From Bacteroidota bacterium (GTDB taxonomy: Bacteria > Bacteroidota > Bacteroidia > Chitinophagales > Chitinophagaceae): a stretch of 64,000 nucleotides of DNA. The translations under genes and the position numbers were made by a program. How positions within the stretch are numbered: the first letter of the stretch is position 1; each line of letters starts with the position of its first letter. Location: contig JAPLEH010000031.1 in assembly GCA_026391455.1 (NCBI GenBank), positions 62,001-126,000 on the forward strand. The letters are read 5' to 3'. A model generated the notes under the pieces. That model searched no databases and was not told the DNA's origin. It was given only the letters and a program-made list of their open reading frames with translations. Of this stretch, positions 23,797 through 50,103 are shown in pieces.

Positions 23797-24212
23797 AAAC
23801 AGCCAGATTTGAGCTGCAAGCTATCAGCCGCAAGCTACAAGCAAACAGCCAGCAATCAACAGCCAGCTATGAGCCGCGAGCTATCAGCTTTGAGCTTTCA
23901 ACAGCCAGTTTCAAGCTGTTAGCTACAAGCTGCAAGTAAACAGCCAGCTATGAGCTGCAAGCTATCAGCTACAAGCTACAAGCAAACAGCCAGCTACGCG
24001 CTGCTAAATGTATTCAACCCTCCTACGCTTCGCTAAGGCGGGCAAGCTTATGGAACTCGCCACGGTTTACCTGCCGTAATGAAATGCAGGCAGGCGGGCA
24101 CGCCAACCGAAAGCCGCGAACTGTATTCAACCTCTTAAACCTCTTGAACTTTTTGAACGTCTTGAACCTTTTAAACTTATGCAACCTATGCAACCTCTTC
24201 AACCTAACTTAA
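23797..24212. repeat. Composite intergenic element 1 (B array - junction - A array)
   Basis: From left to right: a 7-bp-period array (AGCTGCA, AGCTATC, AGCTACA units broken by AAACAGCC) to about 24012; a junction GCTAAATGTATTCAACC; a GC-rich palindromic block with CCTGCCGTAATG and GGCAGGCGGGC; a second junction GAACTGTATTCAACC; and a 9-bp-period array of AACCTCTTG-type units to 24212. The A array abuts the start of the penicillin acylase gene. A TATCTTTA box lies right at its end (about 24214-24221). Confidence 0.9.
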
Positions 24213-24243
24213 ACTATCTTTACCCCTCACAGACCCCCGCCAC

Positions 24244-26283
24244 ATGAAATACATCATCACCCTGCTAATGCTCATCAGCACCGCATCCGCGCAGATCAAC
24301 CCTGCCAACATTACCATTGCCCGCGACAGCTTTGGGGTGCCGCATATATTCGCGCCCACTGATCCCGAAGTGGCCTATGGACTGGCCTGGGCTCATGCCG
24401 AAGATGATTTTGAAACCCTGCAGCTGGTGGTCATGAGTGGTAAGGCAAGACTGGGCTCTGCCATGGGAAAAAAAGGGGCGGAGGCGGATTATGTAGTGGC
24501 CCTGCTACGTATCCGGCAAACAGTGGAAGAACAATGGAATACGCTCAGTCCCGATTTTGTGGCGTTGATAAAAGGATATGTAGAAGGATTGAATGCCTAT
24601 GCCAAAACGCATCCGGATGAAGTGAAGTACAAGCAGGCCTTTCCCTTCGATGAAAAAGATTATATGACGGCCGTGGTATTTTCTATTGGTTTGTTTTGCG
24701 GCGTGGATAATATGTTGCCACAGATCATTGATGGAAAAATACCCACGCTCCCGGAGATGAACCCGAAGGGATCCAATGCCTTTGCGATGAATTCAACCAA
24801 AACCACTACGGGAGAAAGTTATCTCGCTATCAATGCACACCAGCCGCTCGAAGGGCCGGTGGCTTTTTACGAAGCGCATTTACAAAGCGAACAGGGTTGG
24901 AATATGCTGGGGGGATTATTTCCAGGTGGTTGCCTCATCTTTCATGGTACCAATGAAAATTTAGGATGGGCGCATACCGTAAACTTTCCCGATAAGATCG
25001 ATGTATACCAATTGGAAATGAATCCGGAGAATAATGATCAATACAAATTCGACGGACAGTGGGTGAACCTCGAAGAAGATAAAGTAAGCCTGCATGTAAA
25101 GGGCGTACCCATTGCCATTGGTAAAAAAATATACTGGAGTAAATACGGGGCTACCATGAAAACCGATAAAGGTGTTTTCTCCATACGGGTACCGGCTACC
25201 ATGGACATCAAAGCATTGGAAGAATGGTACCGGATGAACAAGGCCCGCAACTTCACGGAGTTTTACAAGGCACTGAGCATGACGAGCCTGCCCATGTTCA
25301 ACATCATGTATGCAGACCGCTACGATACCATCTTTTATATCAGCAATGCAAAAATGCCGAGAAGAAACCCCGATCCAAAATACCATTGGAACAGTACGCT
25401 GCCCGGCAATACATCCGCTACCTTATGGACAGAATTCAAACCGGTGCAGGAATTACCACAATACATCAACCCCGGTTCGGGCTATTTGTATAATACCAAT
25501 CATTCGCCCTTTCTGGCAACAGAAAAAGCATTTAACCTCGACCGAACCAAATACGATGTTAATGATGGCTTCGAAACCTATCATAATAACCGCAGCCAGC
25601 GCGTAACGGAGCTGATCAATGGAGATAAAGTGGATTATGCCACCTTCAAAAAAATAAAATTCGATCAGCAGTTGCCGAAAGAATTAAAATATATCTACAG
25701 TATCGATACCATGCTGAATATGAAAGCGGCTGACTATCCAGAGCTGGCTTCGGTCATTACTAACTTTCAGCAATGGGACCGCAAAGCCATTACGCCGAGC
25801 AAAGGCGCTGCGGTATTTGTACTGGTATATGATTATGTAAGTAAAAAACTTAAGGGTGAGGCACCGCGACAATTAACCAAAGCCGAATCCATCGAAACAT
25901 ATCAGTATGTAAAAGATTACCTGATCAAAAATTTCAAAACAACGGATATTACTCTCGGGGATATTCAAAAACTCGTACGCGGCGATGATGCCCGTGCGGC
26001 CTGGGGATTACCCGATGTACTTACCGCGGCCTATACCGAACCCTATAAAGACGGCCTGCGAAAAGTGATCTCCGGCGATGCCTATATCTGCTTTGTACGT
26101 TACCCCAAAAACGGTGGCCTGCCACTCATCGAATCCGTGAATACCTTCGGTGCCTCCATGCACCCGGACTCGCCGCATTACAAAGACCAGATGGAAATGT
26201 TTCAGAAACAGCAAACGAAAAAAATGACGCTGGATAAGAAAGAAGTGCTGGCGAAGGCGGAAAGGGTGTATTCGCCAATGTAG
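24244..26283 (+). CDS. Penicillin-acylase-family Ntn hydrolase
   Basis: A 679-residue exported enzyme with a signal peptide ending STASA. The alpha-chain part has ARDSFGVPHIFA and GLAWAHAEDDFETLQ. The nucleophile is Ser177 in KGSNAFAMN, where autocatalytic cleavage would create the beta chain. Further family blocks are SYLAINAHQP, GGLFPGGCLIFHGTNENLGW and LGWAHTVNFPDKIDVYQL. Members hydrolyse amide bonds of beta-lactams, acyl-homoserine lactones or other acylated amines; the substrate is not clear here. It is expressed from the edge of composite repeat element 1, and a short family B array follows its stop. Confidence 0.92.
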   Translation: MKYIITLLMLISTASAQINPANITIARDSFGVPHIFAPTDPEVAYGLAWAHAEDDFETLQLVVMSGKARLGSAMGKKGAEADYVVALLRIRQTVEEQWNTLSPDFVALIKGYVEGLNAYAKTHPDEVKYKQAFPFDEKDYMTAVVFSIGLFCGVDNMLPQIIDGKIPTLPEMNPKGSNAFAMNSTKTTTGESYLAINAHQPLEGPVAFYEAHLQSEQGWNMLGGLFPGGCLIFHGTNENLGWAHTVNFPDKIDVYQLEMNPENNDQYKFDGQWVNLEEDKVSLHVKGVPIAIGKKIYWSKYGATMKTDKGVFSIRVPATMDIKALEEWYRMNKARNFTEFYKALSMTSLPMFNIMYADRYDTIFYISNAKMPRRNPDPKYHWNSTLPGNTSATLWTEFKPVQELPQYINPGSGYLYNTNHSPFLATEKAFNLDRTKYDVNDGFETYHNNRSQRVTELINGDKVDYATFKKIKFDQQLPKELKYIYSIDTMLNMKAADYPELASVITNFQQWDRKAITPSKGAAVFVLVYDYVSKKLKGEAPRQLTKAESIETYQYVKDYLIKNFKTTDITLGDIQKLVRGDDARAAWGLPDVLTAAYTEPYKDGLRKVISGDAYICFVRYPKNGGLPLIESVNTFGASMHPDSPHYKDQMEMFQKQQTKKMTLDKKEVLAKAERVYSPM

Positions 26284-26326
26284 AAAGCTGCGAGCTGTCA
26301 GCCGTGAGCCGCAAGCTACAAGCCAA
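26284..26326. repeat. Short 7-bp-period (family B) array after acylase gene
   Basis: Five or six AGCTGCG/AGCCGCA/AGCTACA units start at the acylase stop codon. No A array is attached; the ~157-bp tandem repeats follow instead. Confidence 0.75.
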
Positions 26327-26340
26327 GTAATTTAAACGGT

Positions 26341-27250
26341 TTCCCTCTTAAAAGCGACAGGATATATTCGTTTGATAGAAACGCTGAGTACAAGAAACCT
26401 CTCCTTTGTGTTCTTTGTGCCCTTTGTGGGAAAACTGTATTTCTCCCTTAGTCCCAATATTAGTGTACTACTAGCCAATTGCTGTAATGCGTACCCTTAA
26501 CCAGTCAAAAGCGACAGGATTTATTCGTTTAATAGAAACGTTGTGTACATAAAACATCTTCTTTGTGTTCTTTGTGCCCTTTGTGGGAAAACTGTATTTC
26601 TCCCTTAGTCCCAATATTAGTGTACTACTTGCCAATTGCTGTAATCAGTACCCTTAACCAGTCAAAAGTGACGGTATATATTTGTTTGATATAAACGTTG
26701 TGTACATAAAACCTCTCCTTTGTGTTCTTTGTGCCCTTTGTGGGAAAACTGTATTTCTCCATTAGCTCCCAACTTTAATGTGCTACGAGCCAATTACTGT
26801 AATCAGTACCCTTAACCAGTCAAAAGTGACAAGATTTATTCGTTTAATAGAAACGTTGTGTACATAAAACCTCTCCTTTGTGTTCTTTGTGCCCTTTGTG
26901 GGAAAACTGTATTTCACCATTAGCCCCAACCTTATCGTACAAGGTGCAGTAAGCTGTGAGTCAAGTACCATAAACAGTGCCCTCAACCTCTAAAAAAGCG
27001 ATGATATATATTTGTTTAATAGAAACGTTGTGTACATAAAACATCTCCTTTGTGTTCTTTGTGCCCTTTGTGGGAAAACTGTATTTCTCCATTAGCTCCC
27101 AACTTTAATGTGCTACGAGCCAATTACTGTAATCAGTACCCTTAACCACTCAAAAGCGACAGGATTTATTCGTTTAATAGAAACGCTGAGTACATAAAAC
27201 ATCTCCTTTGTGTTCTTTGTGCCCTTTGTGGGAAAACTGTATTTATCCCC
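26341..27250. repeat. Six-copy tandem repeat of ~157 bp
   Basis: Six copies of a unit containing CTTTGTGTTCTTTGTG plus CCCTTTGTGGGAAAACTG start at 26405, 26562, 26719, 26877, 27049 and 27207. Spacing is 157-158 bp, with one 172-bp interval. Each copy also has GACAGGATTTATTCG-like and AATCAGTACCCTTAACC blocks. The core is itself three 9-bp steps (CTTTGTGTT, CTTTGTGCC, CTTTGTGGG). Copy 5 follows a diverged spacer. The array ends about 110 bp before the secreted-protein gene and holds no credible reading frame. Confidence 0.93.
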
Positions 27251-27359
27251 TGGCCTTGCGATAACAAGAAAAATGAGATAACTTTAAAAACACCAATACC
27301 TCTTTTTACAAATGCAACCAGCTAACCCGTTTGCATCGACTAGCATAAACAACCCGACC

Positions 27360-29270
27360 ATGAGAATTCCCTTCCTCCTTGCCCTATTACTAATAGCAGC
27401 CGCCCTGCCTGCACAGGTGATTCGTAATACCCAACCTGTAAACAAATCAGTGAATATTAATAATGCGAATAATATTAAAAAAGACACCACACCCGCACGC
27501 ACCACCACAAAACCCACCACTACCACCGGTATGCGGCCAGTTCGCACCGCTAATGCTCCGACCTATCTGAAAGATATCGCCATACTACCAAACCTTAAAT
27601 GGTTCACAACTTATATCGCCACCGACCCGGATGTAAAACCACCGGTATGGACGGCGACCTATTCTTCTGGCGAGTTGAAGTACATCACCAATAAAGGGCA
27701 AACCCCACAATGGAAAGCAGACTTTATCTGGCATACCATTCCCGCAGACGCCACATCGGCCCGGGTGGAAATCAGCGCACTCCCTTTTTCCGCTGATAAT
27801 AACGCCGCAGTTATAGAAACAAAACAAATACCCCGTACCCAACCAGACAGTATAAAATTTATAATCGACTTCAAAGAAAAGCTGAATGTACCGGATAATA
27901 TCCCCCGACGTACCAATCCAACCGTATTGCCTGTAAAGCGGATCAACAATAACTCTCCGAAGGGTCTTTCCAATATGATCGTTCCGGGTTCGTATTATGT
28001 AAGGTTGACCCCGCTCAATGCAAAAGGAGAAGTTGTGGGAAAACCGGGTAATACCATTAAAATAATACCGGATACCATCAACTTTCCGGCGCCACCAATA
28101 CCCACCAGCGAAGATTCCCTGCAATCTGATTATGAGATCACATCGGTAAAATACATTCCCATGCATTATCCGGAGCAGCAGTTTGCACAATGTATTGTCG
28201 TTACCGGTTACAACGAGGGATTTATTGCAGGACCGCTCGGCAATACATGGGGCGAGCAGATGATCAACAGTTTTAAACAAGCCTTTCCGGTAGGAAAGAT
28301 CATATGCCCTTCACCACCCAAAGAAAAATCCTGGTATGAAGAAGCATTCGACAATATCACTAATGCGGCAGCCATAGCAGTAAACGGAGCATCCAAAGTA
28401 TATAATGAAACGAAATCTTACCTCAAGAAAAAGTTCAGTGAATACATGTGCAATTATGATCCGGCAGTAAGCATGAATAAAAAAATGGTGGAGCAGACCG
28501 GCCTGAGCAAAGAAAAAATTGATTCAGGGTGTAATACTGCTACAGGCATTGCATTTGAAACGGCCATGACCTATGCCGGTATGCCACCCAGCATTCCCAA
28601 TTTCGATGAAATGTGCAAAATGGCGAAAGGGCAACTGGTGGAATTATTGGTGCAAACCGCCATTGATAAAACAGGAATGCCCTGTGAAGAGATTTGCCGG
28701 CAACAGATCATGGCCGGTCTTAACCAAATGATTGAAGAAAGCGCGAAGAAAAATATTCAAAACGGAGGATTCTTCAATTACAAACCAGACCCGCGCGGAC
28801 AATACAGGCCTGCATATGTGGAAATAGAGATCACCCGTAAACGAAATTCGCAAAAAGGACAAACCATAATTACCAATCTCAACTTTACCCCTATCGTTAA
28901 TAAAACCGTTTCGCAAAAGGATATCAATGGTAAACCGTATTCCTTGTACATCAGCAGTGCTGCTTTATATGAACGTATTCAGTTGCCTGTACCCTATTTA
29001 ACCAATGCCGGAGATAAGATCAAACTGGTGGCCGTGCTTACACCCAAAATGACATTTATAGTGAACAATTGCAGCGATAAAAAAATATCGGGAATAGATT
29101 CCCGTCAGCATCTTTGCCTGGGTTGGAATACGATTGAACAAAACAGTGACGATGCAAAGAAAAGCAGCGGATACAGCCTCATGCTCGACAATGCCGTGAT
29201 ACAGGTAAACCCGGCCGGAAAAATAAAACTCGCACCGGGTGTGAATACGCAATTTGTACACCATCAATAA
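27360..29270 (+). CDS. Large secreted protein of unknown function
   Basis: A 636-residue protein with a clear signal peptide (RIPFLLALLLIAAALPAQ). A Thr/Pro/Asn-rich low-complexity stretch (about residues 25-60) follows. A beta-rich region comes next, then a helical region with several cysteines (KIICPS, YMCNYDP, SGCNTATG, EMCKMAKG, GMPCEEICR), and a beta-rich C-terminal domain. The phrase GMPPSIPNFDEMCKMAKGQL, followed later by TAIDKTGMPCEE, looks like a repeated helical motif. I recognise no named domain. The start at 27360 is chosen because it begins the signal peptide; an ATG 48 nt upstream adds non-signal residues. Confidence 0.72.
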   Translation: MRIPFLLALLLIAAALPAQVIRNTQPVNKSVNINNANNIKKDTTPARTTTKPTTTTGMRPVRTANAPTYLKDIAILPNLKWFTTYIATDPDVKPPVWTATYSSGELKYITNKGQTPQWKADFIWHTIPADATSARVEISALPFSADNNAAVIETKQIPRTQPDSIKFIIDFKEKLNVPDNIPRRTNPTVLPVKRINNNSPKGLSNMIVPGSYYVRLTPLNAKGEVVGKPGNTIKIIPDTINFPAPPIPTSEDSLQSDYEITSVKYIPMHYPEQQFAQCIVVTGYNEGFIAGPLGNTWGEQMINSFKQAFPVGKIICPSPPKEKSWYEEAFDNITNAAAIAVNGASKVYNETKSYLKKKFSEYMCNYDPAVSMNKKMVEQTGLSKEKIDSGCNTATGIAFETAMTYAGMPPSIPNFDEMCKMAKGQLVELLVQTAIDKTGMPCEEICRQQIMAGLNQMIEESAKKNIQNGGFFNYKPDPRGQYRPAYVEIEITRKRNSQKGQTIITNLNFTPIVNKTVSQKDINGKPYSLYISSAALYERIQLPVPYLTNAGDKIKLVAVLTPKMTFIVNNCSDKKISGIDSRQHLCLGWNTIEQNSDDAKKSSGYSLMLDNAVIQVNPAGKIKLAPGVNTQFVHHQ

Positions 29271-29327
29271 AAAATATAATCGTTGATACTCCGTACCAGC
29301 GGGTATCAATAATCACCATTCCATATT

Positions 29328-29335
29328 TATCTTTG
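29328..29335 (+). promoter_or_regulatory. Candidate -7 box TATCTTTG
   Basis: An exact TAnnTTTG match 21 bp before the ATG of the DUF4476 gene. Confidence 0.6.
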
Positions 29336-29356
29336 AACCCATAAAAACGACCACAT

Positions 29357-30106
29357 ATGAAAAAATGGATCACCCTTTTCACTGTTCTTTGTTTTTCCCT
29401 TTCTGTATTCGCACAGTTCGGGCCCAATACCAGTAATCTTACCATCAGTACCACCGGTGCCAGTAACCTGAAGATTCGTCTCGCCGGAAAAAAATACAGC
29501 TTGCAGGATCGCAGCCTTACCTTTCAGGGACTCGCCCCCGGCAATTATACCCTCAGTATATTTCAACTCCAGCCGAAAGCATTCGGCGGCGGTACTGAAT
29601 ATGTAACCGTATTTGATCGTACCATCACCCTTACTTCGCAAAAACATATGGAAGTATGTGTACTGCGTTTTGGTAAAGTGGCCTGGGATGAAAAATTCAT
29701 CGAGCGCGACAACTGGAACGAGAATTTCCAAAACCCCGAACCCGACCGCGACCGCTGGAATAGTGGCGGTGGTGGCAATGGCGGCAATGGTGGCAACTGG
29801 GGAAACAACAACTACCGCGAACCCGTAGATCCCAATCAGTTTGCCCGCATCAGGGATATGATCAAAAAAGAAGCGTTCGACGATAATAAGAACAGTACGG
29901 CCAGAGCTATTATGAAGAACAATTGGTTCACTGCCGAACAATTAAAAACCATCGCCGGCTTCTTCACCTTCGATAATGGCCGCCTGCAATTCGCCAAATT
30001 CGCTTACGATTATTGCACCGACCCCGGCAACTTTTTCATTCTTGGCGATACGTTTGTGTTTGATAGCAATAAACAGGAGTTGATGAAGTTCATCGCGGGA
30101 AAGTAG
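29357..30106 (+). CDS. Secreted DUF4476-domain protein
   Basis: A 249-residue protein with a signal peptide ending SVFAQ. Residues 20-110 form a beta-rich domain with a PEGA-like phrase (TFQGLAPGNYTLSIFQ). A Gly/Asn/Trp-rich linker follows (about 133-155). The C-terminal 95 residues are a DUF4476 domain: FARIRDMIKKEAFDDNKNS, NWFTAEQLKTIAGFFTFDN, FAKFAYDYCTDP. The family is common in Bacteroidota and its function is unknown. It has its own -7 box. The family A repeat array begins 3 nt after the stop. Confidence 0.85.
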   Translation: MKKWITLFTVLCFSLSVFAQFGPNTSNLTISTTGASNLKIRLAGKKYSLQDRSLTFQGLAPGNYTLSIFQLQPKAFGGGTEYVTVFDRTITLTSQKHMEVCVLRFGKVAWDEKFIERDNWNENFQNPEPDRDRWNSGGGGNGGNGGNWGNNNYREPVDPNQFARIRDMIKKEAFDDNKNSTARAIMKNNWFTAEQLKTIAGFFTFDNGRLQFAKFAYDYCTDPGNFFILGDTFVFDSNKQELMKFIAGK

Positions 30107-30108
30107 GG

Positions 30109-30799
30109 CAGGTTGCATAAGTTCCATAGGTTGAAGAGGTTGCATAAGTTCCATAGGTTGAAGAGGTTGCATAGGTTCAAGACGTTCAAAAAGTTCAAGA
30201 GGTTTAAGAGGCGTGCCCGGCTACCTCCACTTTGTTTCGGCAGGTAAACCGTGGTGGGTTTAAGAGGTGACATAAGTTGAATACAGTTCGCGGTTGCGGG
30301 TTGCTGGTTTCTTGCCTGCCTGCCTACCTTCATTTCATTACGGTAGGTAGGTTGCATAAGTTCCATAGGTTGCATAGGTTCAAGACGTTTAAGACGTTCA
30401 AGAGGCGTGCCCGCCTGCCTGCATTTTATTACGGCAGGTAAACCGTGGCGGGTTCCATAGGTTGAATACATTTAGCAGCACGTAGCTGGCTGTTTTCTTG
30501 CCCCAAAGGGGTAAACAGCTTGTAGCTAACAACCATTATTGTCCGGGGAAAGTTTTTGCAAAGCCCTGAAACATTGCCCCAGAGCGGGTTCTAGCCCCTC
30601 TCCTTTGGGGAGGGGTTGGGGAGGGGTCTGAATTGATTTTCAAACTAATAAATAGTTTTACCGGACAACACGGACAACAATGGCTAACAACTTGAAACTA
30701 GCTGTTGAAAGCTCAAAGCTGATAGCTCGCCCCAAAGGGGTAAACAGCTCATATCTGGCTGTTTACTTGCAGCTTGTGGCTAACAGCTTACAGCTTCTC
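30109..30799. repeat. Composite intergenic element 2 (A array - junctions - B array, inverted orientation)
   Basis: From 30110 eleven perfectly phased 9-bp units (AGGTTGCAT, AAGTTCCAT, AGGTTGAAG and so on) run to about 30208. Blocks with CCTGCC palindromes, GTTGAATACAGTTCGCGG, more A units and GTTGAATACATTTAGCAGC follow. The 7-bp-period B array then runs (TAGCTGGCTGTTTTC, GCCCCAAAGGGG, AGCTTGTAGC) up to the protease stop at 30800. A REP-like palindrome is embedded at 30592. No gene is seen in these 690 bp. Confidence 0.92.
30592..30630. repeat. REP-like palindrome, copy 1
   Basis: AGCCCCTCTCC pairs with GGGGAGGGG, followed by a second TTGGGGAGGGG arm. Two more copies lie at 49512 and 49602. 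Confidence 0.8.
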
Positions 30800-33223: not shown

Positions 33224-33276
33224 AGGAAGTGTTTTTGTTCTGTACAAGATAAAGTAGTGCGCGGAGTTGGGCAAAA

Positions 33277-33745
33277 AAGTTTCAGGAGGTTGCATAGGTT
33301 CAAGAGGTTCCAGATGTTCAAGAAGTTCAAGAGGTTCCATAGGTTACATAAGTTGCATAAGTTTCATAGGTTTCATAGGTTGCATAGGCTTGCCTGCCTA
33401 CCTTCATTTCATTACGGCAGGTAAACCGTAGCTTTTGCGTAGGTAGGTTCAAGAGGCGTGCCCGCCGTGGCGGGTTCCATAGGTTACATAAGTTGAATAG
33501 GTTGCATAAGCCTGCCTGCCGGCAGGCAGGTTGAATACAGTTCGCGGTTAGTTGTTCACCCAAAAGAGGCTTGCCTTCTTTTGGGCTGGCTGTTTGCTCG
33601 AAGCTCGCCCCAAAGGGGCAGGCAACTTGCAGCTAGAGGCTGTTAGCTTGTATCTGGCTGTTCAAGGCTCACAGCTCGAAGCTGACAGCTCGCTTCTGGC
33701 TGTTTTCTTGTAGCTTGCAGCTCACAGCTTGTAGCTCTTTTCCGT
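33277..33745. repeat. Composite intergenic element 3 (A array - junction - B array, inverted orientation)
   Basis: Nine-bp units (AGGTTCAAG, AGGTTACAT, AAGTTGCAT and so on) run from 33277, with a CCTACCTTCATTTCATTACGG block and a GCCTGCCGGCAGGC palindrome. The junction GTTGAATACAGTTCGCGG lies near 33530. A 7-bp-period B array (AGCTCGA, AGCTGAC, AGCTTGT types, one GCCCCAAAGGGG) then runs to within about 12 bp of the PcrA start. The A side abuts the start of the zinc protease gene. Confidence 0.92.
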
Positions 33746-41075: not shown

Positions 41076-41093
41076 TCATTTGATTTCAAATGA
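41076..41093. other. Perfect 8-bp inverted repeat over the vsr stop
   Basis: TCATTTGA-TT-TCAAATGA covers the vsr stop codon. It could form a small hairpin at the end of vsr, or serve as a second operator half for the C-M-R promoter. Confidence 0.5.
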
Positions 41094-43126: not shown

Positions 43127-43129
43127 TTT

Positions 43130-43212
43130 TGATACGATATGATACGTAAATATCCGATATTAGTTCGAATAAATCAAATAAAACTGATACGATATGGTAC
43201 GAAAATATTCGA
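43130..43212. repeat. Two 28-bp direct repeats upstream of fic
   Basis: TGATACGATATGATACG at 43130 and its 28-bp partner at 43185 differ at 3 of 28 positions and are spaced 55 bp apart. The first copy begins 4 bp before the fic ATG. They look like operator sites, plausibly for the Fic protein's own winged helix. Confidence 0.7.
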
Positions 43213-43370
43213 AAAATAACACTAATCCCATCCTGCAGCCTCAGACGGATAAAGATTTTTTAATGATAGTGATATCAGTACCAGAGCAAATCTCAAAAAT
43301 TGTTTTTTCCGGGATGTCGTAAAGGCGGGATGTAATAATGCTTGAATATCAGATTTTACAACTTACCGCC

Positions 43371-43469
43371 TTACCGGCAATAGTAGTTCTGGCAATTTTG
43401 AAACAAGTTCTGATTAAGTTTTTCCGGTTTACTTCTCTGGCATATTTTTTTGCTGTGTATATCCGCCAT
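43371..43469 (-). pseudogene. Decayed vsr 5' fragment, copy A
   Basis: The minus strand reads MADIHSKKI and then loses similarity, with a stop after 32 codons. The first codons and their DNA (TTTTGCTGTGTA, then TCCGCCAT on the plus strand) match the start of the intact vsr gene at 41499. It is probably the remains of a second vsr gene. Confidence 0.55.
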
Positions 43470-43489
43470 ACACGAATATTACAAATTTT

Positions 43490-43529
43490 AAAAAAACGCC
43501 CGGCCAGCATTCAACCTATGCTGGCCGGG
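43490..43529 (-). terminator. Strong intrinsic terminator
   Basis: A 12-bp perfect stem CCCGGCCAGCAT/ATGCTGGCCGGG with a 7-nt loop. On the minus strand a T run follows, so it ends the 43557-43895 gene. Confidence 0.92.
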
Positions 43530-43556
43530 CCTTTCATCTGCAAATAAACAGCCTTT

Positions 43557-43895
43557 CTATTCCCGTTTGAAATAATAAAGCAAATCCGGAGCGAGAGCAT
43601 TACGCCCCCCTTGTTTATCTGTTTGCAGAACAAACAATAACTGCCATCCCTCAGTTGCCAGCAGATTAATTACTTTAAGTGACCTGCCGCCTTTATTGAT
43701 TAGCTGATTGATTTTTTTGTTATTCAGTGTAGTGTCAGCCCCGTGTTTGATACTTTCCGGCAATGTCTCCATTACGATATTTCCAACAGCATCAAAACGG
43801 GCGGATACCTCCAGGTACTTTCTGCTTACCTGCTGAGAAAAGCAAAAGGAACATGAAATAAAAAAAACAACAATAAAAAGTAAATACTTTTTCAT
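43557..43895 (-). CDS. Small secreted protein, DUF4177-like ending
   Basis: A 112-residue protein with a signal peptide (YLLFIVVFFISCSFCFSQ). The C-terminal half (INLLATEGWQLLFVLQTD, then YYFKRE) resembles the short beta-alpha-beta layout of DUF4177-type proteins. It has its own strong terminator and lies inside the accessory island. Its function is unknown. Confidence 0.65.
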   Translation of the reverse strand: MKKYLLFIVVFFISCSFCFSQQVSRKYLEVSARFDAVGNIVMETLPESIKHGADTTLNNKKINQLINKGGRSLKVINLLATEGWQLLFVLQTDKQGGRNALAPDLLYYFKRE

Positions 43896-44129
43896 ACGAT
43901 TTATTTTTTAACGTAACGAATGAATACACCACATGTACGTACATGCGATACTGTTGCAGGATTAATTTTCACCTGCCCGTTTTGCTAAGTTGTAAAAAAG
44001 GAAATGTGTGGTTAAGCGAATGAATAGCTAAATAATAGAAATTAATTCAACCTTTAAATAGTTGAATATTTTTTAAGAAAATTATAGGAAAGGCAACCGG
44101 AAAGTAATGTGAATCAGAAAATAAATTAC
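43896..44129. other. AT-rich gap
   Basis: No gene or repeat was recognised. It probably carries the promoter of 43557-43895. Confidence 0.5.
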
Positions 44130-44294
44130 TTACTTCCCCTTTATCGCAGGCAAGCCGGTGGTTTTCAGCAATGCCTTTGCTTCCCGCGCCTTTTTCACAA
44201 AAAAAGGGTGCTTCTCGTAATTGCCTACACGTTCATCAATTACCGGCGTTACTTTTCTTTTTGAAGTTTTTTTCTTTTTTAAGGTTACTGGCAT
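44130..44294 (-). CDS. 54-aa basic protein, partner of the DUF6934-like gene
   Basis: An ATG-started 54-residue frame with a Lys-rich start (MPVTLKKKKTSKRK). A conserved-looking core follows (DERVGNYEKHPFFVKKAREA), and the end is TTGLPAIKGK. It begins 17 nt after the stop of the 44312 gene on the same strand, so the two should be one transcript. Its size, charge and pairing suggest a small partner, perhaps the antitoxin-like or DNA-binding half of a two-gene module; no function is proven. Confidence 0.68.
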   Translation of the reverse strand: MPVTLKKKKTSKRKVTPVIDERVGNYEKHPFFVKKAREAKALLKTTGLPAIKGK

Positions 44295-44311
44295 ACAACA
44301 AATTTAAAAAA

Positions 44312-44755
44312 TTATTTGCGGCGAAACAAAAATGCTTCATAATTATGGTCTCTTTCAAAAAGTACCCATTTATCATGATACAACCCATATATCTCAAAAT
44401 CTTTCTTTATATATTCCAGATAATTAGTAATGCCGATTCGGTACAGTCTTGTTCTTGACCTTGAACTTCCCTTTGCAAAAATCCAGTGATCAGGATAATG
44501 ATCTGAAAAGGAAATGATAGCCGCAGCCACAGTGATCAATACTTTCCGGCTGTCATTGTTATTACTTACTGTTGAATCATATATCTCACCCGTTTCGTTG
44601 TCAAGGTCGCCAAAGCCAACATTAAAAACTTGTCCGGAAATGCGGGTAAAGCGTATCACCTTCCTGATCTGACCCTTTGGGCCAATGCTGTTAAATTCAA
44701 AATCGAGAAAGCTGCTGTTTGTTTTAAATGGGTACGGAGAAAAATGCATCCGCAA
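44312..44755 (-). CDS. DUF6934-like protein of unknown function
   Basis: A 147-residue soluble protein. The blocks VFNVGFGDLDNETGEIYDST, VSNNNDSRKVLITVAAAI, and GSSRSRTRLYRIGITNYL fit a Bacteroidota family I would call DUF6934. It is followed by the 54-residue basic protein. Homologues often lie in defence or mobile neighbourhoods paired with a small gene, so a toxin-antitoxin-like or defence role is possible but unproven. Confidence 0.72.
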   Translation of the reverse strand: MRMHFSPYPFKTNSSFLDFEFNSIGPKGQIRKVIRFTRISGQVFNVGFGDLDNETGEIYDSTVSNNNDSRKVLITVAAAIISFSDHYPDHWIFAKGSSRSRTRLYRIGITNYLEYIKKDFEIYGLYHDKWVLFERDHNYEAFLFRRK

Positions 44756-44854
44756 AACTATATAACATCTTTTTTCTGTATGCCTTTATCACTCACGTAA
44801 AACGGTTAAAAAGATTTTTTAGAAATTGCAACCTCAGGTTTATAAAGGGTTTTT

Positions 44855-44971
44855 TTAACTGATTTTTTCTGAATGAAATTTATCTTTTTCAACGGTTGCA
44901 GGCTTCACTTTTCTACTCCGGATGCGGCTCATATTATAACTCCGTACCTGTTTGCTGTGTACGTCTGCCAT
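44855..44971 (-). pseudogene. Decayed vsr 5' fragment, copy B
   Basis: The minus strand reads MADVHSKQVRSYNMSRIRS, 18 of 19 residues identical to the intact vsr start. It then switches to unrelated sequence (RKVKPATVEK) and stops after 38 codons. The DNA match includes GCGGCTCATATTATAACT. The breakpoint after RIRS marks a deletion or recombination junction. Confidence 0.82.
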
Positions 44972-45219
44972 TACTGTAAAGTAATGAATTGTTGCGAAAC
45001 TCAAAGTAGCAGAGTAAGCGCGACACACGGGTGACCTGGCGTATGATCGATTGCTGGCAGCATGCAAATGTTTTAACCGAAAAAATGCTATAATAATACC
45101 GGTTCAGTAAATAGTATTTTCAAAAAAGAGTATATTTTTGTTCCTGTAAAGCCGGCAAGCGCGTTACAATTATCCCAACATGAGCACTTTCCATTTTATA
45201 TGAAATAAAAATATTAAAA

Positions 45220-45378
45220 ATGGCGAAGCCTATTAAAGAAACACCGATTCTCAAAGGGAAGGATGCAAGGAAATTTATCCGGGAGCAGCAGGCTCCAAAG
45301 GATATTTTAACTAAGCGAAAAGAAAGAGAAGAAATTTTGAAAACCTATCACCTCTTTAAAGCTGCTGAAAAGTTTTGA
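45220..45378 (+). CDS. 52-aa protein preceding a GNAT acetyltransferase
   Basis: A small basic protein (MAKPIKETPILKGKDARKF, then EREEILKTYHLFKAAEKF). Its stop overlaps the TTG start of the acetyltransferase frame by 4 nt, so the two were translated together. In Bacteroidota such short proteins commonly sit before GNAT proteins and may act as an antitoxin-like partner. It seems intact although its partner is broken. Confidence 0.72.
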   Translation: MAKPIKETPILKGKDARKFIREQQAPKDILTKRKEREEILKTYHLFKAAEKF

Positions 45379-45911
45379 TACAGATTTCCGATCTTCAAAT
45401 AATCCGTCTTAACCCCTCACACCCATTTTTACCATTCGACTGTCAGGATGAGGATCTGAATAGTTTTTTGCTGAATGACGCAAAGGCTTATCTTGGCAAA
45501 CTGCTGTCAGTTACCTATCTTTTTTAGTATAACAGAAAAACCATCGCATTCTTCAGCGTAAGCAATGATAAAATCACTGTGTCAGATTTTGAATCAAAGA
45601 GACGGTTCAGGCGGTTGTTTGCCGATACAATGCCCGCCGGGAAACAATATAAAAGCTATCCCGCTGTAAAAATCGGCCGGCTGGGTGTGCATACTGATTT
45701 TCAAAGTACGGGCTTTGGCGGTCAACTGTTAAACTATATCAAAGGAATGTTTATTTATAATAACAGAACGGGCTGCCAATATATTACCGTGGATGCTTAT
45801 AGCAGATCATTACGTTTTTATGAAAAAAATGGGTTCCGCTATTTTACTGATAGCGATAGCCAGTCTGATACACGTCAGATGTATTTCAGCCTCGTTGATC
45901 TCGTGAACTGA
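45375..45911 (+). pseudogene. GNAT-family acetyltransferase broken by an amber codon
   Basis: From the TTG at 45375 the frame reads a typical GNAT start (PFDCQDEDLNSFLLNDAKAY, then KLLSVTYLF). A TAG stop at 45525-45527 interrupts it. In the same frame it goes on through TIAFFSVSND, the acetyl-CoA motif KIGRLGVHTDFQSTGFGGQL, and FYEKNGFRYF to 45911. Only the single nonsense codon separates two otherwise good halves of about 178 residues. It is a recent pseudogene, or is read through. GNAT proteins of this type can be toxins that acetylate aminoacyl-tRNA. Confidence 0.85.
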
Positions 45912-46019
45912 TCCTGGCTATAACACAATGAATAGTTTTTTTGAATAGCGAAAATCGAAAGCAAAAAGTTCATAAGAGTCTTAACGTAATACTAATCCGC
46001 CCGTCCAATCTTTTCCACC

Positions 46020-46027
46020 TAATTTTG
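46020..46027 (+). promoter_or_regulatory. Candidate -7 box TAATTTTG
   Basis: An exact TAnnTTTG match 31 bp before the alcohol dehydrogenase ATG. Confidence 0.6.
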
Positions 46028-46058
46028 CTGATTCATTACAAAACCCCAAAACACTCCC

Positions 46059-47102
46059 ATGCCCACAACACAAGCATTTGGCACCACCAGTGCCACCGCA
46101 CCCGTTGCATCCTTAACTATCGAACGGAGAGACCCCCGCCCCCATGATGTACAGATCGAGATCCTGTATTGCGGCATCTGCCATAGCGACCTGCATACCG
46201 CACGTGGTGAATGGCCCGGTACCGTTTACCCCTGTGTGCCCGGTCATGAGATCGTGGGCCGTATAACTGCCGTTGGTGATCATGTAAAAAAATTCAAAGT
46301 GGGCGACATCGCCGGTGTGGGCTGCCTGGTTGACAGTTGCCGCGAATGTGATAACTGTAAAGAAGGACTCGAACAGTTTTGCAGCCAGGGCGGTACGTTT
46401 ACCTACAACAGTGCCGATAAGATCAGCGGCGGCCATACGTTTGGCGGCTACAGCAAAAGCATTGTGGTACCCGAAGATTTTGCGCTGCATATATCTGATA
46501 AGCTTCCCCTCGATGCAGTAGCACCCCTGCTCTGCGCGGGCATTACCACCTACTCACCCCTTCGCCACTGGAAAGTGGGCAAAGGCACCCGCGTAGGTGT
46601 GCTGGGCCTCGGTGGCCTGGGACATATGGGCGTGAAACTCGCCGTAGCCATGGGAGCTGAAGTAACCATGCTGAGCCATTCCCCCTCGAAAGAACAGGAT
46701 GCTAAACGCCTCGGCGCCCATCGCTTTGTCCTTACCAGCGATGCGGAACAGGTAAAGACCGTGAGCGGCTATTTCGATTTTATACTCGATACCGTATCCG
46801 CCGAACATGACTATAATTTTTATCTCGGATTGCTGCGGGTAAACGGGGTAATGGTATGTGTGGGCGTACCCCCGCAACCCATAACCGTACCGGCGCTCAA
46901 CCTCATCTTTGGCCGTAAATCCGTAGCGGGATCACTCATCGGCGGATTGCCTGAAACCCAGGAGATGCTCGACTTCTGCGCCGAACATAATATCGTTTCC
47001 GATATCGAACTCATCAAACCCGACCAGATCAATGAAGCCTATGAAAGAATGCTGAAGGGGGATGTGCGGTATCGGTTTGTGATCGACTTTAAGAGTGAAT
47101 AG
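46059..47102 (+). CDS. Zinc-dependent NAD(P) alcohol dehydrogenase (YahK/CAD type)
   Basis: A 347-residue MDR-family enzyme. Catalytic zinc ligands lie in ILYCGICHSDLHTARGEW and PGHEIVGRI. The structural zinc cysteines are in CLVDSCRECDNCKEGLEQFC (Cys spacing typical). The Rossmann motif is GVLGLGGLGHMGVKLA. These features match the cinnamyl/aryl alcohol dehydrogenase group, which reduces aldehydes with NADPH. The last codons and the TAG stop are formed by a 7-bp-period repeat (AGTGAAT) that continues downstream. Confidence 0.94.
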   Translation: MPTTQAFGTTSATAPVASLTIERRDPRPHDVQIEILYCGICHSDLHTARGEWPGTVYPCVPGHEIVGRITAVGDHVKKFKVGDIAGVGCLVDSCRECDNCKEGLEQFCSQGGTFTYNSADKISGGHTFGGYSKSIVVPEDFALHISDKLPLDAVAPLLCAGITTYSPLRHWKVGKGTRVGVLGLGGLGHMGVKLAVAMGAEVTMLSHSPSKEQDAKRLGAHRFVLTSDAEQVKTVSGYFDFILDTVSAEHDYNFYLGLLRVNGVMVCVGVPPQPITVPALNLIFGRKSVAGSLIGGLPETQEMLDFCAEHNIVSDIELIKPDQINEAYERMLKGDVRYRFVIDFKSE

Positions 47103-47205
47103 TGAATAGTGAAAAGTGAATAGTTGGGGTCGTTGAAGGCAGTTATTACCTTTCTGTTAGCGGAGAACCCAACTATTCACTCTTAACTTTTATCTATTAA
47201 CTGAG
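47094..47205. repeat. AGTGAAT 7-bp array and 14-bp inverted repeat between convergent genes
   Basis: Four 7-bp units (AGTGAAT three times, AGTGAAA once) run over the ADH stop. The complementary array (ACTATTC, ACTCTTA, ACTTTTA) covers the MazG-like stop. Within them AGTGAATAGTTGGG (47115-47128) and CCCAACTATTCACT (47168-47181) form a perfect 14-bp inverted repeat with a 39-nt loop. Confidence 0.88.
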
Positions 47206-47542
47206 AAAACCCGTACTTTAAAGATTTTCCATTAAACGTCTCCACGATTGCCTCTTCGAGGGAGATATCGAGTAAAGAGGCGAGCAGATCGAGATAGATG
47301 GCAATACCACCGATCTCTTCTTTGAGCATGTCTTTTGTAATATCTTTCGCGGTATAGCTGCTGCCGCCATCCACACCGCCGCGCTCCACGCGCTGCATTT
47401 TCTTGATCATATTACAGAGTTCACCCACTTCACCGGCAAGCGCCGTGGTCCAGTAGGTGAGTGGTTGGTTGTCGTAACATTTAAAACCCTCCCGGGCACG
47501 TTCTACATTGATGGGGCGGAGAGAAGCGAGATCGAGTTTCAT
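47183..47542 (-). CDS. MazG-like nucleotide pyrophosphohydrolase
   Basis: A 119-residue protein. The motif ALAGEVGELCNMIKKMQRVE, then MLKEEIGGIAIYLDLLAS, gives the paired acidic residues (ExxE, then ExxD) of the all-alpha NTP pyrophosphatase fold. Such enzymes remove non-canonical nucleotides. The start at 47542 (MKLDLASLRP) is preferred; the frame runs upstream into the family B repeat array. Its final residues (QLIDKS) and stop lie in the 7-bp repeat shared with the ADH gene end. Confidence 0.85.
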   Translation of the reverse strand: MKLDLASLRPINVERAREGFKCYDNQPLTYWTTALAGEVGELCNMIKKMQRVERGGVDGGSSYTAKDITKDMLKEEIGGIAIYLDLLASLLDISLEEAIVETFNGKSLKYGFSQLIDKS

Positions 47543-47580
47543 GTGCAATTGTTTTAGCTGCGAAAGATACGAGGAATACA

Positions 47581-47826
47581 AGCCTTGAACAGCCAGCTGC
47601 AAGCTATGAGCTACAAGCTGCAAGAAAACAGCCTGCTATCAGCCTCGAGCTACCAGCTTTGAGCTTGAAACAGCCAGCAGCAAGCTACAAGCAAACAGCC
47701 AGTAACAACCGAAAGCCGCGCTCTGTATTCAACTTCTTAAACCTTTTGAACGTCTTAAACGTCTTGAACCTATGGAACCTATGTAACCTATGAAACCTAT
47801 GCAACCTATGGAACCTTTTGAACCTA
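47581..47826. repeat. Composite intergenic element 4 (B array - junction - A array)
   Basis: A 7-bp-period B array (AGCTGCA, AGCTATG, AGCTACA units with AAACAGCC) runs to about 47715. The junction GCGCTCTGTATTCAAC follows, then 9-bp units (CTTGAACCT, ATGGAACCT, ATGCAACCT) to 47826. It runs directly into a TATCTTTG promoter box and the GH25 gene. Confidence 0.92.
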
Positions 47827-47832
47827 TCTTTG
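47825..47832 (+). promoter_or_regulatory. -7 box TATCTTTG at the end of an A array
   Basis: An exact TAnnTTTG match that overlaps the last family A unit, 28 bp before the GH25 ATG. The repeat therefore supplies the spacer and upstream promoter region. Confidence 0.65.
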
Positions 47833-47859
47833 CCCCTTCAAATCACCTTTCTCCACCGG

Positions 47860-48651
47860 ATGCTAAACCGAAAACAAAAAAAATACATACGTCGCGTACT
47901 CTTTATCACCCTCGGGGTATCCTTATTGGCCCTCGGCTTGTGGATGTTCAACAACTGGATGCAATACAACAAGGCTGCATCCACCCGCTATACCGAGTTC
48001 GGAATAGATATTCCTAATGGGTATGAGATACATGGTATCGATGTGTCCAAATACCAATCCACCATTGCCTGGGAGGAAGTGAAGAAAATGAAGGTGGACT
48101 TTATCCAAATGGGATTTGCCTTTATCAAAGCCACGCAAAATACCGGCAGTACCGATCCGATGTATACCCGCAACTGGAAGAATGCCCGCAAAGCCGGAGT
48201 TCCGCGCGGCGCCTATCATTTTTTTATAGCTTCCTCCGATGGGGTGGCGCAGGCCAATCATTTCATTGATGTGGTGGACCTGGAGCCCGGCGACCTGCCG
48301 CCCGTACTGGATGTGGAACAAATGAATGGTGTATCGCCCGAACGACTGCGCACAGAAATAAAAGACTGGCTTCGCATTGTGGAAGAACATTACAGCGTAA
48401 AGCCGATCATATATACCAATGTGGATTTTTATATACGCAACCTCGGCTCCGAATTTGATGACTATCCCCTCTGGGCAGCACATTACTATCAGCCCGGTCA
48501 GCCCCGCATCGGCCGCTCCTGGACCTTCTGGCAACACAGCGACCAGGGACATGTAAACGGCATCACCCACAAAGTAGATTTCAATGTATTCAACGGCGAC
48601 TCCATCGCATTTAAGAAATTGCTCATTCGGGAGGAAGCTTTTAGCTACTAG
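47860..48651 (+). CDS. GH25-family lysozyme (muramidase), membrane-anchored
   Basis: A 263-residue protein with one N-terminal helix (VLFITLGVSLLALGLWMF) as anchor or signal. The GH25 domain starts at HGIDVSKYQSTIAWEEV (catalytic Asp region). It continues with FIQMGFAFIKATQ, GVPRGAYHFF, LPPVLDVEQMNG (catalytic Asp/Glu region), PIIYTNVDFY, and WTFWQHSDQG. It cleaves the MurNAc-GlcNAc bond in peptidoglycan. The last codons (AFSY, stop) are written in family B repeat units that open composite element 5. Confidence 0.93.
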   Translation: MLNRKQKKYIRRVLFITLGVSLLALGLWMFNNWMQYNKAASTRYTEFGIDIPNGYEIHGIDVSKYQSTIAWEEVKKMKVDFIQMGFAFIKATQNTGSTDPMYTRNWKNARKAGVPRGAYHFFIASSDGVAQANHFIDVVDLEPGDLPPVLDVEQMNGVSPERLRTEIKDWLRIVEEHYSVKPIIYTNVDFYIRNLGSEFDDYPLWAAHYYQPGQPRIGRSWTFWQHSDQGHVNGITHKVDFNVFNGDSIAFKKLLIREEAFSY

Positions 48652-48946
48652 CCACAAGCAAACAGCCAGCAGCAAGCTGTGAGCTGCAAGCTACAAGCTG
48701 TTTACCCCTTTGGGGCAAGCCTTGAACAACCAGAAGACAGCTTCTAGCTACAAGCTGCAAGAAAACAACCAGCCCAAAAGAAAGCAAGCCTTGAACAGCC
48801 AGCAACCAACTGTATTCAACTTATGCAACTTCTTGAACTTTTTGAACCCGCCACGGCGGGCACGCCTCTTAAACCTTTTGAACCTCTTGAACGTCTTAAA
48901 CCTCTTCAACCTATGGAACCTATGCAACCTATGTAACCTCTTCACC
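48636..48946. repeat. Composite intergenic element 5 (B array - junction - A array)
   Basis: B units (AGCTTTT, AGCTACT, AGCCACA) start inside the GH25 gene and include its TAG stop. They run with GCCCCAAAGGGG-type and AAACAACC interruptions to about 48805. Then come CAACTGTATTCAAC and 9-bp A units with an inserted CCGCCACGGCGGGC palindrome to 48946, before the DUF4440 gene. Confidence 0.92.
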
Positions 48947-48997
48947 CCCATCTCCCCTGAGTAACCGAAATCAACTAACTTCCGGAAAACTCCCAAC

Positions 48998-49420
48998 ATG
49001 AAAAAAACACTCGTAATAATAACGGTACTCCTCTCCCTCCGCGCTGCCGCACAATCCTCCGATGAAAAGGAAATACGCAACCTGCTGGCCACCCAAACAG
49101 CCGCCTGGAACCGCGGCGATATTGATGCGTTTATGAATGGCTATTGGGAAAATGATTCGCTGATGTTTATCGGCAAAAGCGGTGTTACCTATGGTTGGGG
49201 AAACACCCTCCGCAATTATAAAAAAGGATATCCCGATACCGCATCCATGGGTAAACTCACTTTTACACTCATACAGGTTAAAAAATTATCAAAGCAATAT
49301 TATCATGTCACCGGTAAATGGTTTTTACAACGCAGCATTGGCAACGTAGGCGGACATTATACCTTACTTTTTCAAAAGATCAGAAGGAAATGGGTGATTG
49401 TGGCAGATCATAGCAGTTGA
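48998..49420 (+). CDS. Secreted SnoaL/DUF4440-like protein
   Basis: A 140-residue protein with a signal peptide ending LRAAAQ. The cone-fold (NTF2-like) pattern is visible: EIRNLLATQTAAWNRGDIDA, FMNGYWENDSLMFIG, and HYTLLFQKIRRKWVIVADHS. No catalytic residues are decisive. A 7-bp-period array (GAGAATT, AATAGTT, ATGAGTT) starts at the stop codon. Confidence 0.88.
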   Translation: MKKTLVIITVLLSLRAAAQSSDEKEIRNLLATQTAAWNRGDIDAFMNGYWENDSLMFIGKSGVTYGWGNTLRNYKKGYPDTASMGKLTFTLIQVKKLSKQYYHVTGKWFLQRSIGNVGGHYTLLFQKIRRKWVIVADHSS

Positions 49421-49453
49421 GAATTAATAGTTATGAGTTAAGAATTTAGAATG
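49419..49453. repeat. 7-bp-period array AATAGTT type
   Basis: Five in-phase 7-bp units (GAGAATT, AATAGTT, ATGAGTT, AAGAATT, TAGAATG) follow directly on the DUF4440 stop. Confidence 0.75.
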
Positions 49454-49511
49454 GCAATTGTTGGACAAAAGTTTATTAATTAAAAGAGTAACTATTATTC
49501 CTTAGGGTTCT

Positions 49512-49547
49512 TAGCCCCTCTCCCTTGGAGAGGGGTTGGGGAGAGGT
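49512..49547. repeat. REP-like palindrome, copy 2
   Basis: AGCCCCTCTCC, then GGAGAGGGG and TTGGGGAGAGGT. Same design as copy 1 at 30592. Confidence 0.82.
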
Positions 49548-49601
49548 TGTATAAACCAATGTTCGTTCAATAATATAACACCCGTTCAATCCCGGTGTCA
49601 A

Positions 49602-49637
49602 TAGCCCCTCTCTTTAGAGAGGGGTTGAAGAGAGGTC
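49602..49637. repeat. REP-like palindrome, copy 3
   Basis: AGCCCCTCTCT, then AGAGAGGGG and TTGAAGAGAGGT. Same orientation as copy 2, about 90 bp away. Confidence 0.8.
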
Positions 49638-49654
49638 TCAATCCATAAAGAATA

Positions 49655-49882
49655 TTATCTCCATTTCTTAATGAGGTATCTTATCAGCAATACAAGCGTT
49701 AAAATAGCGAACGCATAAAACAGGATGGTATAGATAATGGGTTTACCATTGGGATAGGCCAGTTCATGATACAAACCCGCAGTAAGACAAGCCAACAGCC
49801 ATATAAGACCAAGGGCAATAGAATTGAGAATCTTTACAAAAAAATGTTTAACCTCCGGATCCCAGTTGGGTTGTGCTGACAT
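49655..49882 (-). CDS. Small two-helix membrane protein
   Basis: A 75-residue protein with two membrane helices (ALGLIWLLACLTAGLYHELA and IYTILFYAFAILTLVLLIRY) and a basic C terminus. No named family is recognised. A composite repeat element lies upstream of its start. Confidence 0.72.
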   Translation of the reverse strand: MSAQPNWDPEVKHFFVKILNSIALGLIWLLACLTAGLYHELAYPNGKPIIYTILFYAFAILTLVLLIRYLIKKWR

Positions 49883-49910
49883 AGTACAGCAAAGTACAAA
49901 TTAAGGGGTA

Positions 49911-50103
49911 AAAAGTTCAAGAGTTTCAAAAGGTTTAAGAGGTTCCATAAGTTCCATAGGTTACATAAGTTGAATACAGTTGGCAGTAGACAGTTACCAG
50001 TTGGCAATTGCTTTCAGCTCGTAGCTCAAAGCTGGCTGTTTTCTTGCCCCAAAGGGGTAAACAGCTTGTAGCTAGTAGCTTGCAGCTGATACCTTGCAGC
50101 TTC
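49911..50103. repeat. Composite intergenic element 6 (A array - junction - B array, inverted orientation)
   Basis: Nine-bp units AAGTTCAAG, AGGTTTAAG and AGGTTCCAT run from 49913. The junction GTTGAATACAGTTGG follows. A 7-bp stretch (GGCAGTA, GACAGTT, ACCAGTT) then passes into the B array (AGCTCGT, AGCTCAA, GCCCCAAAGGGG, AGCTTGT), which ends at the MerC stop. The A side abuts the start of the small membrane protein. Confidence 0.9.

Follow-up and report, generated by a model that had tools for sequence, protein, structure and literature searches.

Composite arrays of degenerate heptamers and nonamers in short gene gaps of a Chitinophagaceae genome

Introduction

Strictly phased short arrays with degenerate units have already been described in cyanobacteria and Xanthomonas. 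The present study deals with a family of such arrays in the genome of a Bacteroidota bacterium (Chitinophagaceae, assembly GCA_026391455.1). Six members lie in the window, i.e., the whole analyzed stretch of 64,000 nucleotides of contig JAPLEH010000031.1 (positions 62,001 to 126,000). Each of them joins an array of heptamers (AGCYNNN, B) via a short junction to an array of nonamers (AACYTNTNN, A).

Judging from the accessible literature sections, the closest known counterparts are the degenerate heptanucleotide repeats of cyanobacteria, which have been studied best in the P6b region of the Nostoc tRNA-Leu intron and comprise Class I (TDNGATT) and Class II (NNTGAGT; PMC4476775, PMC3488679). The composites appear to work most like these repeats, as both have a period of seven with fixed and free positions and gain or lose whole 7-nt units. 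The replacement of one class by another between relatives is a further likeness, and so is the use of arrays as hairpin arms, which is also seen at some loci of the relatives G001, G012 and G065. In contrast, the Nostoc repeats, as described in these sections, reside in one intron and pair as RNA, while the present family consists of two-period composites with a fixed junction in dozens of gaps. On the sense strand the composites lack the arm pairing of intron P6b, which is found in other arrays, namely those of G001, G012 and G065 and of two G000 loci. Two periods, a fixed order, a fixed junction and dozens of loci thus make the family a variant distinct from the cyanobacterial repeats.

Two further kinds of heptamer arrays are comparable. 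The GGGNATC and GGGGAYT arrays of Xanthomonas and Nostoc are likewise heterogeneous and intergenic, lie near stop codons and vary in length between related species. However, they are G-rich and quadruplex-forming, and the accessible part of the report, in which the slippage of heptamers is proposed to result from the stretch of DNA that the polymerase holds, describes neither a second array nor a junction (PMC4692102). No fixed G-tract is present in AGCYNNN or AACYTNTNN. The TAACTGA direct repeats of Beggiatoaceae, Cyanobacteria and five Bacteroidetes also form intergenic heptamer arrays with a patchy distribution, but their units are uniform, they lie upstream of start codons in Beggiatoaceae, and a composite is not described in the accessible text (PMC4679880). 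A general survey, as far as its available text goes, also belongs to the nearest literature (PMC4060949). A composite of heptamers, junction and nonamers was described in none of the titles and abstracts of the searched literature, the coverage of which excluded most subscription papers.

It is tentatively proposed that the composites are lineage-specific, non-coding and self-propagating repeats of short gene gaps, which change by slippage and by recombination from copy to copy without any need for a host function. Arrays would lengthen and shrink by whole units via slippage or unequal exchange, and, across the genome, recombination would swap content from copy to copy. Two arrays would be aligned by short anchors (AGC at steps of seven bases, AAC at steps of nine), so that phase and anchors would persist, whereas the intervening bases would vary and the units would end up in a nearly random order. 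Gene ends would be the places where such DNA is tolerated.

Six composite elements share one design

The first-pass annotation had proposed six composites of the same design in constant order. All six were confirmed when they were read base by base, and they were found again with a run finder. In 6/6 the heptamers are followed by the junction and the nonamers, with B always located 5′ of A on the AACC strand, which is the forward strand in elements 1, 4 and 5 and the reverse strand in elements 2, 3 and 6. On this strand AGCYNNN heptamers come first, in many cases followed by a short run of (AACCAGC)n, then a junction with TGTATTCAAC at its end, and finally AACYTNTNN nonamers. The (AACCAGC)n stretch, often found between B and the junction, is a third, heptamer-like module that had been overlooked at first, as had the presence of two junctions each in elements 1 and 2. 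The B arrays are interrupted by AAACAGCC and sometimes by the hairpin GCTGTTTACCCCTTTGGGGCAAG. An uninterrupted series of eleven nonamers, which had been noted earlier, was also verified (30106-30204). In the following list the A arrays are the runs returned by the run finder, which also returned B runs in each of the six elements.

Element 1: 23797-24212, forward strand; B arrays 23802-23994, junction 24009-24018 (GCTGCTAAATGTATTCAACC variant), palindromic insert, junction 24122-24131, A array 24129-24209.
Element 2: 30106-30799, reverse strand; A arrays 30106-30204 and 30345-30398, junctions 30276-30285 and 30461-30470, B modules 30489-30527 and 30707-30798, with a nested insert that resembles a miniature inverted-repeat transposable element (MITE).
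Element 3: 33274-33745, reverse strand; A arrays 33274-33390 and 33477-33503, junction 33530-33539, B arrays 33614-33739.
Element 4: 47581-47829, forward strand; B arrays 47592-47668, junction 47724-47733, A array 47731-47829.
Element 5: 48636-48946, forward strand; B arrays 48636-48759, junction 48811-48820, A arrays 48818-48844 and 48872-48943; one end of an inversion.
Element 6: 49909-50104, reverse strand; A array 49909-49971, junction 49969-49978, B arrays 50006-50104; the other end of the inversion.

In the window, TGTATTCAAC occurs at 24009, 24122, 30276, 30461, 33530, 47724, 48811 and 49969, and a ninth match at 48585 lies within a gene.

The order of modules and the junction are conserved across the genome

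The genome assembly comprises 5,515,762 bp in 74 contigs. A sample of 464 kb (C19:1-200000, C63:1-180000, C57:1-20000 and the window) contained 40 A runs and 73 B runs, compared with 0 and 0 as well as 0 and 1, respectively, in two order-2 Markov sequences. B runs were counted on both strands because AGCT is palindromic. The sample contained 17 clusters with both A and B, and a tally of the run listing revealed the order B then A in 17/17; solo A arrays, solo B arrays and two inverted A pairs were also present.

The junction 13-mer AACTGTATTCAAC has 39 exact copies in the genome and 60 copies with at most one mismatch, compared with 6 for the reversed control. After removal of two double-counted rows, A units were found downstream of 38/39 exact junctions and B pairs or AACAGCC upstream of 34/39, while the background at 2000 random positions was 1.35% for A, 2.65% for B and 4.45% for AACAGCC. 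One exact copy (L038) is a chance match in coding DNA. With the double-counted rows included, the reverse order was limited to 1/41 rows with A upstream, namely in element 2 with its two A arrays, and 1/41 with AACAGCC downstream. In 40 aligned junctions TGTATT and the following AA are invariant, and the base between them is C (90%) or T (10%). Counted in overlapping windows, the genome contains 443 matches to three consecutive nonamers and 337 to five heptamers, compared with 0 for the reversed control.

The exact junctions and the uniform order of the clusters support, genome-wide, the earlier suggestion of a modular intergenic family. Independence of A and B had been named as a point that would speak against it. 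The two do occur separately, in the window at 852-905 (A) and 26283-26327 (B), but two cluster scans turned up no example of the reverse order. Likewise, conservation of the junction beyond the window holds across this genome, but the composite form was not found in the relatives searched, and only a look-alike, TTGTATTAACC, is present in G012.

Units have fixed anchors and a nearly random order

The exact period with fixed and variable unit positions is a feature of both A and B arrays. In 70 distinct A arrays with 533 units, positions 1, 2, 3 and 5 are fixed at 99%, position 4 is C (79%) or T (19%), and position 7 is T (93%). Positions 6, 8 and 9 vary by a vocabulary of ATG, CTT, TTT or ATT plus a further base, and positions 6 and 8 share 0.476 bits. 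In 106 interior A units, each selected irrespective of its own sequence, positions 1, 2, 3, 5 and 7 were intact in 99-100%. The earlier statement that the period is kept while the bases drift is thus correct for the period and its anchors, but the other positions follow words rather than being free.

Prior to the analysis of the A unit order, arrays identical to or contained in another array were dropped. In the 464-kb sample this removed one true case, two identical A arrays of four units in C57 that are separated by 233 bp, which shows that arrays are sometimes copied locally. The fraction of adjacent identical A units was 0.117, compared with 0.079±0.011 in global shuffles; the values for lags 2 and 3 were slightly above and those for lags 4-6 below the shuffles. 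Three-unit runs common to different A arrays numbered 80, compared with 36.6 in shuffles (maximum 53), four-unit runs numbered 4, compared with 1.6 (maximum 4), and five-unit runs 0. The B sample of 73 arrays and 315 units had been selected for intact anchors; adjacent identical units amounted to 0.054 at lag 1 (shuffles 0.059±0.013) and to 0.135 at lag 3 (0.057±0.023), and two-unit runs common to different arrays numbered 158 (shuffles 92.8, maximum 126). The table of B interior units mixes both strands and was not used. Period-8 TAATNNNN arrays (25) and AACNNNN arrays (24) showed no strong excess at lag 1 and a similar excess of shared two-unit runs. Taken together, the units follow one another almost at random, apart from weak local excesses, and there is some copying over two or three units, but little beyond.

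Random unit order combined with fixed positions and a fixed order of modules is also the product expected of a templated generator, in which one RNA template with a B part, the junction and an A part would be read iteratively and with loose positions. The model is telomerase, which writes irregular telomeres. Such a generator is highly improbable here, as the inherited arrays of sister species show whole-unit indels instead of fresh writing (see below), and as RVT_1, the only reverse transcriptase profile searched, had 0 matches in the genome (completeness 100), while it was present in 10/48 genomes searched. A reverse transcriptase generator was therefore rejected. Scarcely more probable is a writing process at the DNA level without a known reverse transcriptase, which would polymerise phased degenerate units at gene ends with a fixed module order and a species-specific vocabulary.

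Fifty clusters (one of them counted twice) were aligned all against all. Six pairs exceeded 90 bp and 85%; one of these is the same locus fetched twice, and the other five match over 96-143 columns. Composites of different loci showed no end-to-end similarity in this alignment, and the composite as a copied unit was rejected on this basis.

Arrays of sister species differ by whole units

At four orthologous array loci of the sister species G004 and G012 the flanks are identical at 4290/4701 positions. Indels of 18, 9 and 9 bp were found in the nonamers and of 28, 7 and 7 bp in the heptamers, that is six whole-unit changes of length between close relatives. Elsewhere in the aligned stretches the gaps were 1, 1 and 9 bp long. 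Position 4 was substituted in 1/20 cases. Between these species the variable positions do not change faster than the flanks and the anchors change less, which marks the anchors as the special part. Two copies in C57 both carry the rare junction TGTATTTAAC and are identical over a 56-bp flank, yet their four units differ, by eye, at 9/12 variable and 0/20 anchor positions.

Two opposed elements bound an inversion

Elements 5 and 6 enclose a segment with altered orientation:

Inverted segment: 48947-49908, bounded by element 5 (forward strand) and element 6 (reverse strand), which face each other.

Among the matches listed for 28 searched genomes of the same genus, the segment has the opposite orientation in 22/22 genomes that carry it and the next gene on one contig. 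Nine relatives were fetched. The ancestral order of the four pieces is complete in five of them (L270, L272, L273, L276, L277), L271 contains three, L269 and L274 agree for the pieces shown, and L275 is devoid of the segment. The end points of the inversion coincide with the two opposed elements, and in the simplest reading recombination between elements 5 and 6 would have caused it.

In several cases arrays or junctions were also located no more than about 350 bp from a contig end (G000 C3, C7, C14, C16, C25, C54 and C63; G012 C14, C129 and C196), which suggests that the arrays break short-read assemblies. Draft genomes of this group can therefore contain misjoins at the arrays, given that several contig ends are close to one and that the arrays may invert segments.

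Composites lie in gaps that are otherwise short

Element 1 is flanked by the genes for a 528-aa protein without assignment and a penicillin amidase, and the two genes are also adjacent in relatives, at a DNA identity of about 65-80%. The orthologous gap is array-free in seven relatives (L204-L209, L212), with a distance from stop to start of 25-51 bp (by eye), compared with 450 bp here. In L210 and L211 other sequence lies in between.

Insertion into a short gap is what would be expected if the composite moved as a unit with the help of a transposase and the arrays decayed afterwards, in the manner of a MITE or of repetitive extragenic palindromic (REP) sequences and their REP-associated tyrosine transposases (RAYTs). 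The constant order, the conserved junction, a possible 6-bp duplication (TTAAAC) at element 1 and four Y1_Tnp matches in the genome would fit as well. REP sequences and bacterial interspersed mosaic elements with RAYT transposases have many intergenic copies near gene 3′ ends, like the present arrays, but they are characterized by a single conserved palindrome, which is missing here. Transposition as a unit is unlikely: the array content is largely not copied between loci, decay would strike anchors as often as other positions, and no constant terminal repeats were visible by eye across the boundaries examined. In addition, the four Y1_Tnp genes are not flanked by arrays, and the Y1 transposase was therefore rejected as a partner. 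The composites also do not fit the definition of MITEs, copies of which are alike from end to end, with terminal inverted repeats and target duplications, as different loci showed no end-to-end similarity and no constant ends were seen by eye.

Gene neighbours were taken from simple, crude calls of open reading frames (ORFs). The median length of gaps without arrays was 62 bp (tandem), 78 bp (convergent) and 183 bp (divergent), compared with 284-374 bp for gaps with arrays. Because gaps without arrays are short, array ends that are flush with stop codons need no targeting. Both neighbours were called for 39 of the 50 clusters (++ 13, +- 16, -- 5, -+ 5). Arrays were present in 9/69 convergent, 8/218 tandem and 7/68 divergent gaps.

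Related arrays occur in other genomes

Junction, nonamers and heptamers were searched in the own genome and in 116 relatives. The composite junction was not found in the 116 relatives; six matches to the junction pattern in five of them (G015, G040 twice, G043, G060, G104), inspected by eye, resemble coding DNA matched by chance and were rejected as composites. Nonamer arrays matched in 6/116 relatives, which include genomes of the same genus and of the same family. Heptamer arrays matched in 43/116, with at least 10 matches in 19 genomes, compared with four genomes for the reversed heptamer control. The variable bases of the heptamers differ by genome, e.g., AGCCCAT in G069 and AGCTNNT in G001.

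The reversed heptamer control matched in G028 (40), G012 (27), G004 (22), G070 (17) and, with 1-8 matches, in twelve further genomes, and the reversed nonamer control in G024 (11), G037 (8) and once each in G100, G104 and G108. Other array families may be behind these matches.

At the cut-off used, 6/16 rows of G012 and 0/7 rows of G004, the two sister species, have a period-7 array with a different sequence (AGTCNNT, AGTCGGG, GTGAGTG) on the 5′ side of the nonamers. Such an array lies 3′ of the nonamers in 1/16 rows of G012 (L145, with an array on both sides). AACAGCC was found 5′ of the nonamers in 5/23 rows of both species and 3′ in one; rows L146 and L254 are the same array entered twice. 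As the layout is partly common to these species with other heptamers, it seems to be older than the species under study, though the exact junction was not found elsewhere.

Elsewhere, namely in G001, G012, G065 and at two G000 loci, the nonamers are arranged as inverted pairs that make up hairpin stems, the longest unbroken predicted helix being 9-23 bp at the 12 loci folded. The sole match of junction and nonamers in other genome contigs, in a metagenome-assembled genome of Chitinophagaceae, is an inverted nonamer hairpin and not a composite. A phage origin was rejected, as junction and nonamers had 0 matches in viral contigs, a search that did not extend to collections of plasmid and phage records.

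At L156 (G060:C12:2500-4400) five tandem units of about 100 bp with closely similar flanks contain, by eye, heptamer arrays of 2-5 units with changed variable bases; a short stretch after CCAGT also differs between the copies.

Slippage and recombination versus selection

The whole-unit indels, the near-random order and the inversion fit a process in which slippage re-phases the arrays and recombination reshuffles them, with the anchors as pairing points. Recombination between copies would do the shuffling, and the anchors would persist because they serve pairing. Several observations weigh against this proposal. Slippage predicts alike neighbours, yet the A excess is small and B has none at lag 1, with an excess at lag 3. 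Neutral change explains neither the coupling of the variable positions (0.476 bits) nor the slow anchors, which were substituted in 2/100 cases between G004 and G012, compared with 8.7% in the flanks (p = 0.006). The variable positions (8/61, p = 0.16) were not faster than the flanks, so that rapid turnover is unsupported between these species. A further indel, located next to a start codon at the edge of an array, is 8 bp long and does not correspond to a whole unit, and the common flank of the two C57 copies could itself have been moved in by recombination. Neither a target-site duplication nor an insertion enzyme has been established for the composites. The B side is directed toward a gene 3′ end in 29/39 clusters (p = 0.003; within tandem gaps 13/18, p = 0.10), and convergent gaps are favoured (9/69 versus 15/286, p = 0.03), both of which function or targeted insertion might predict. 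Both biases are provisional, because the ORF calls are crude.

Part of this would be expected if the arrays were functional sites kept by the host, with an abundant DNA- or RNA-binding protein or a 3′-end or insulator role selecting the anchors of each unit and leaving the other bases partly free. Such a function is possible, though doubtful. The 99-100% intact anchors of the interior A units and their slow change, the coupled vocabulary, the position of B at gene 3′ ends and the inverted pairs of same-kind units with unbroken predicted helices in relatives all argue for it; the absence of element 1 from the orthologous gap of seven relatives argues against it. Also against it, sense RNA did not fold better than shuffles (median z +0.46, 0/31 below -2; antisense median -0.02, 7/31 below -2), and the ten genes scanned in the window have no common theme. 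An RNA element was rejected, with 0 Rfam matches at gathering score in the window and no excess of sense-strand folding.

The -7 box of Bacteroidota promoters is TAnnTTTG. By eye it seemed frequent near A ends, yet it was found in 3/50 cases, compared with 20/155 upstream of ORF starts, and thus not beyond background. The arrays as promoter carriers were rejected accordingly, and the result also counts against a host function. The evidence for selection is therefore mixed, slow anchors standing against absence at one orthologous gap, a lack of sense-strand folding and a lack of promoter boxes.

The family combines many copies, two adjoining periods and a fixed junction with orthologous arrays in sister species and an inversion bounded by copies. 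Slippage, recombination, selection and templated writing are thus separable with further genomes and a cultured relative.

Further repeats and inserts in the window

Three additional features of the window are:

Solo A array: 852-905, reverse strand; without B or junction.
Solo B array: 26283-26327, forward strand; directly 3′ of the stop codon of the penicillin-amidase-like gene.
MITE-like insert: 30538-30680, inside the B part of element 2; ends TTGTCCGG/CCGGACAA.

The MITE-like insert has matches elsewhere in the genome, with identities of 94% in C25, 94% in C23, 100% in C58 and 82% in C9. A MITE-like end (CGGACA..AATGGC), similar to the TTGTCCGG/CCGGACAA type, lies directly 5′ of the B arrays in other composites (L003, L006, L034). 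Small palindromic inserts were found at 24035-24110, 30210-30260, 30405-30460 and 33400-33470, within A arrays as well as between modules, and the AAC phase is often still legible. They are of the types CGCCACGG...CCGTGGCG, CCTGCC...GGCAGG and CCTACC...GGTAGG and look like a separate family of short palindromes. Directly 3′ of the solo B array, a 157-bp tandem repeat with 5.6 copies and an internal CTTTGTG triple of period 9 extends over 26350-27248. A period-8 array (CATTAKCA) at 53833-53900 is of the same kind as the TAATNNNN arrays, which open several composites at a stop codon.

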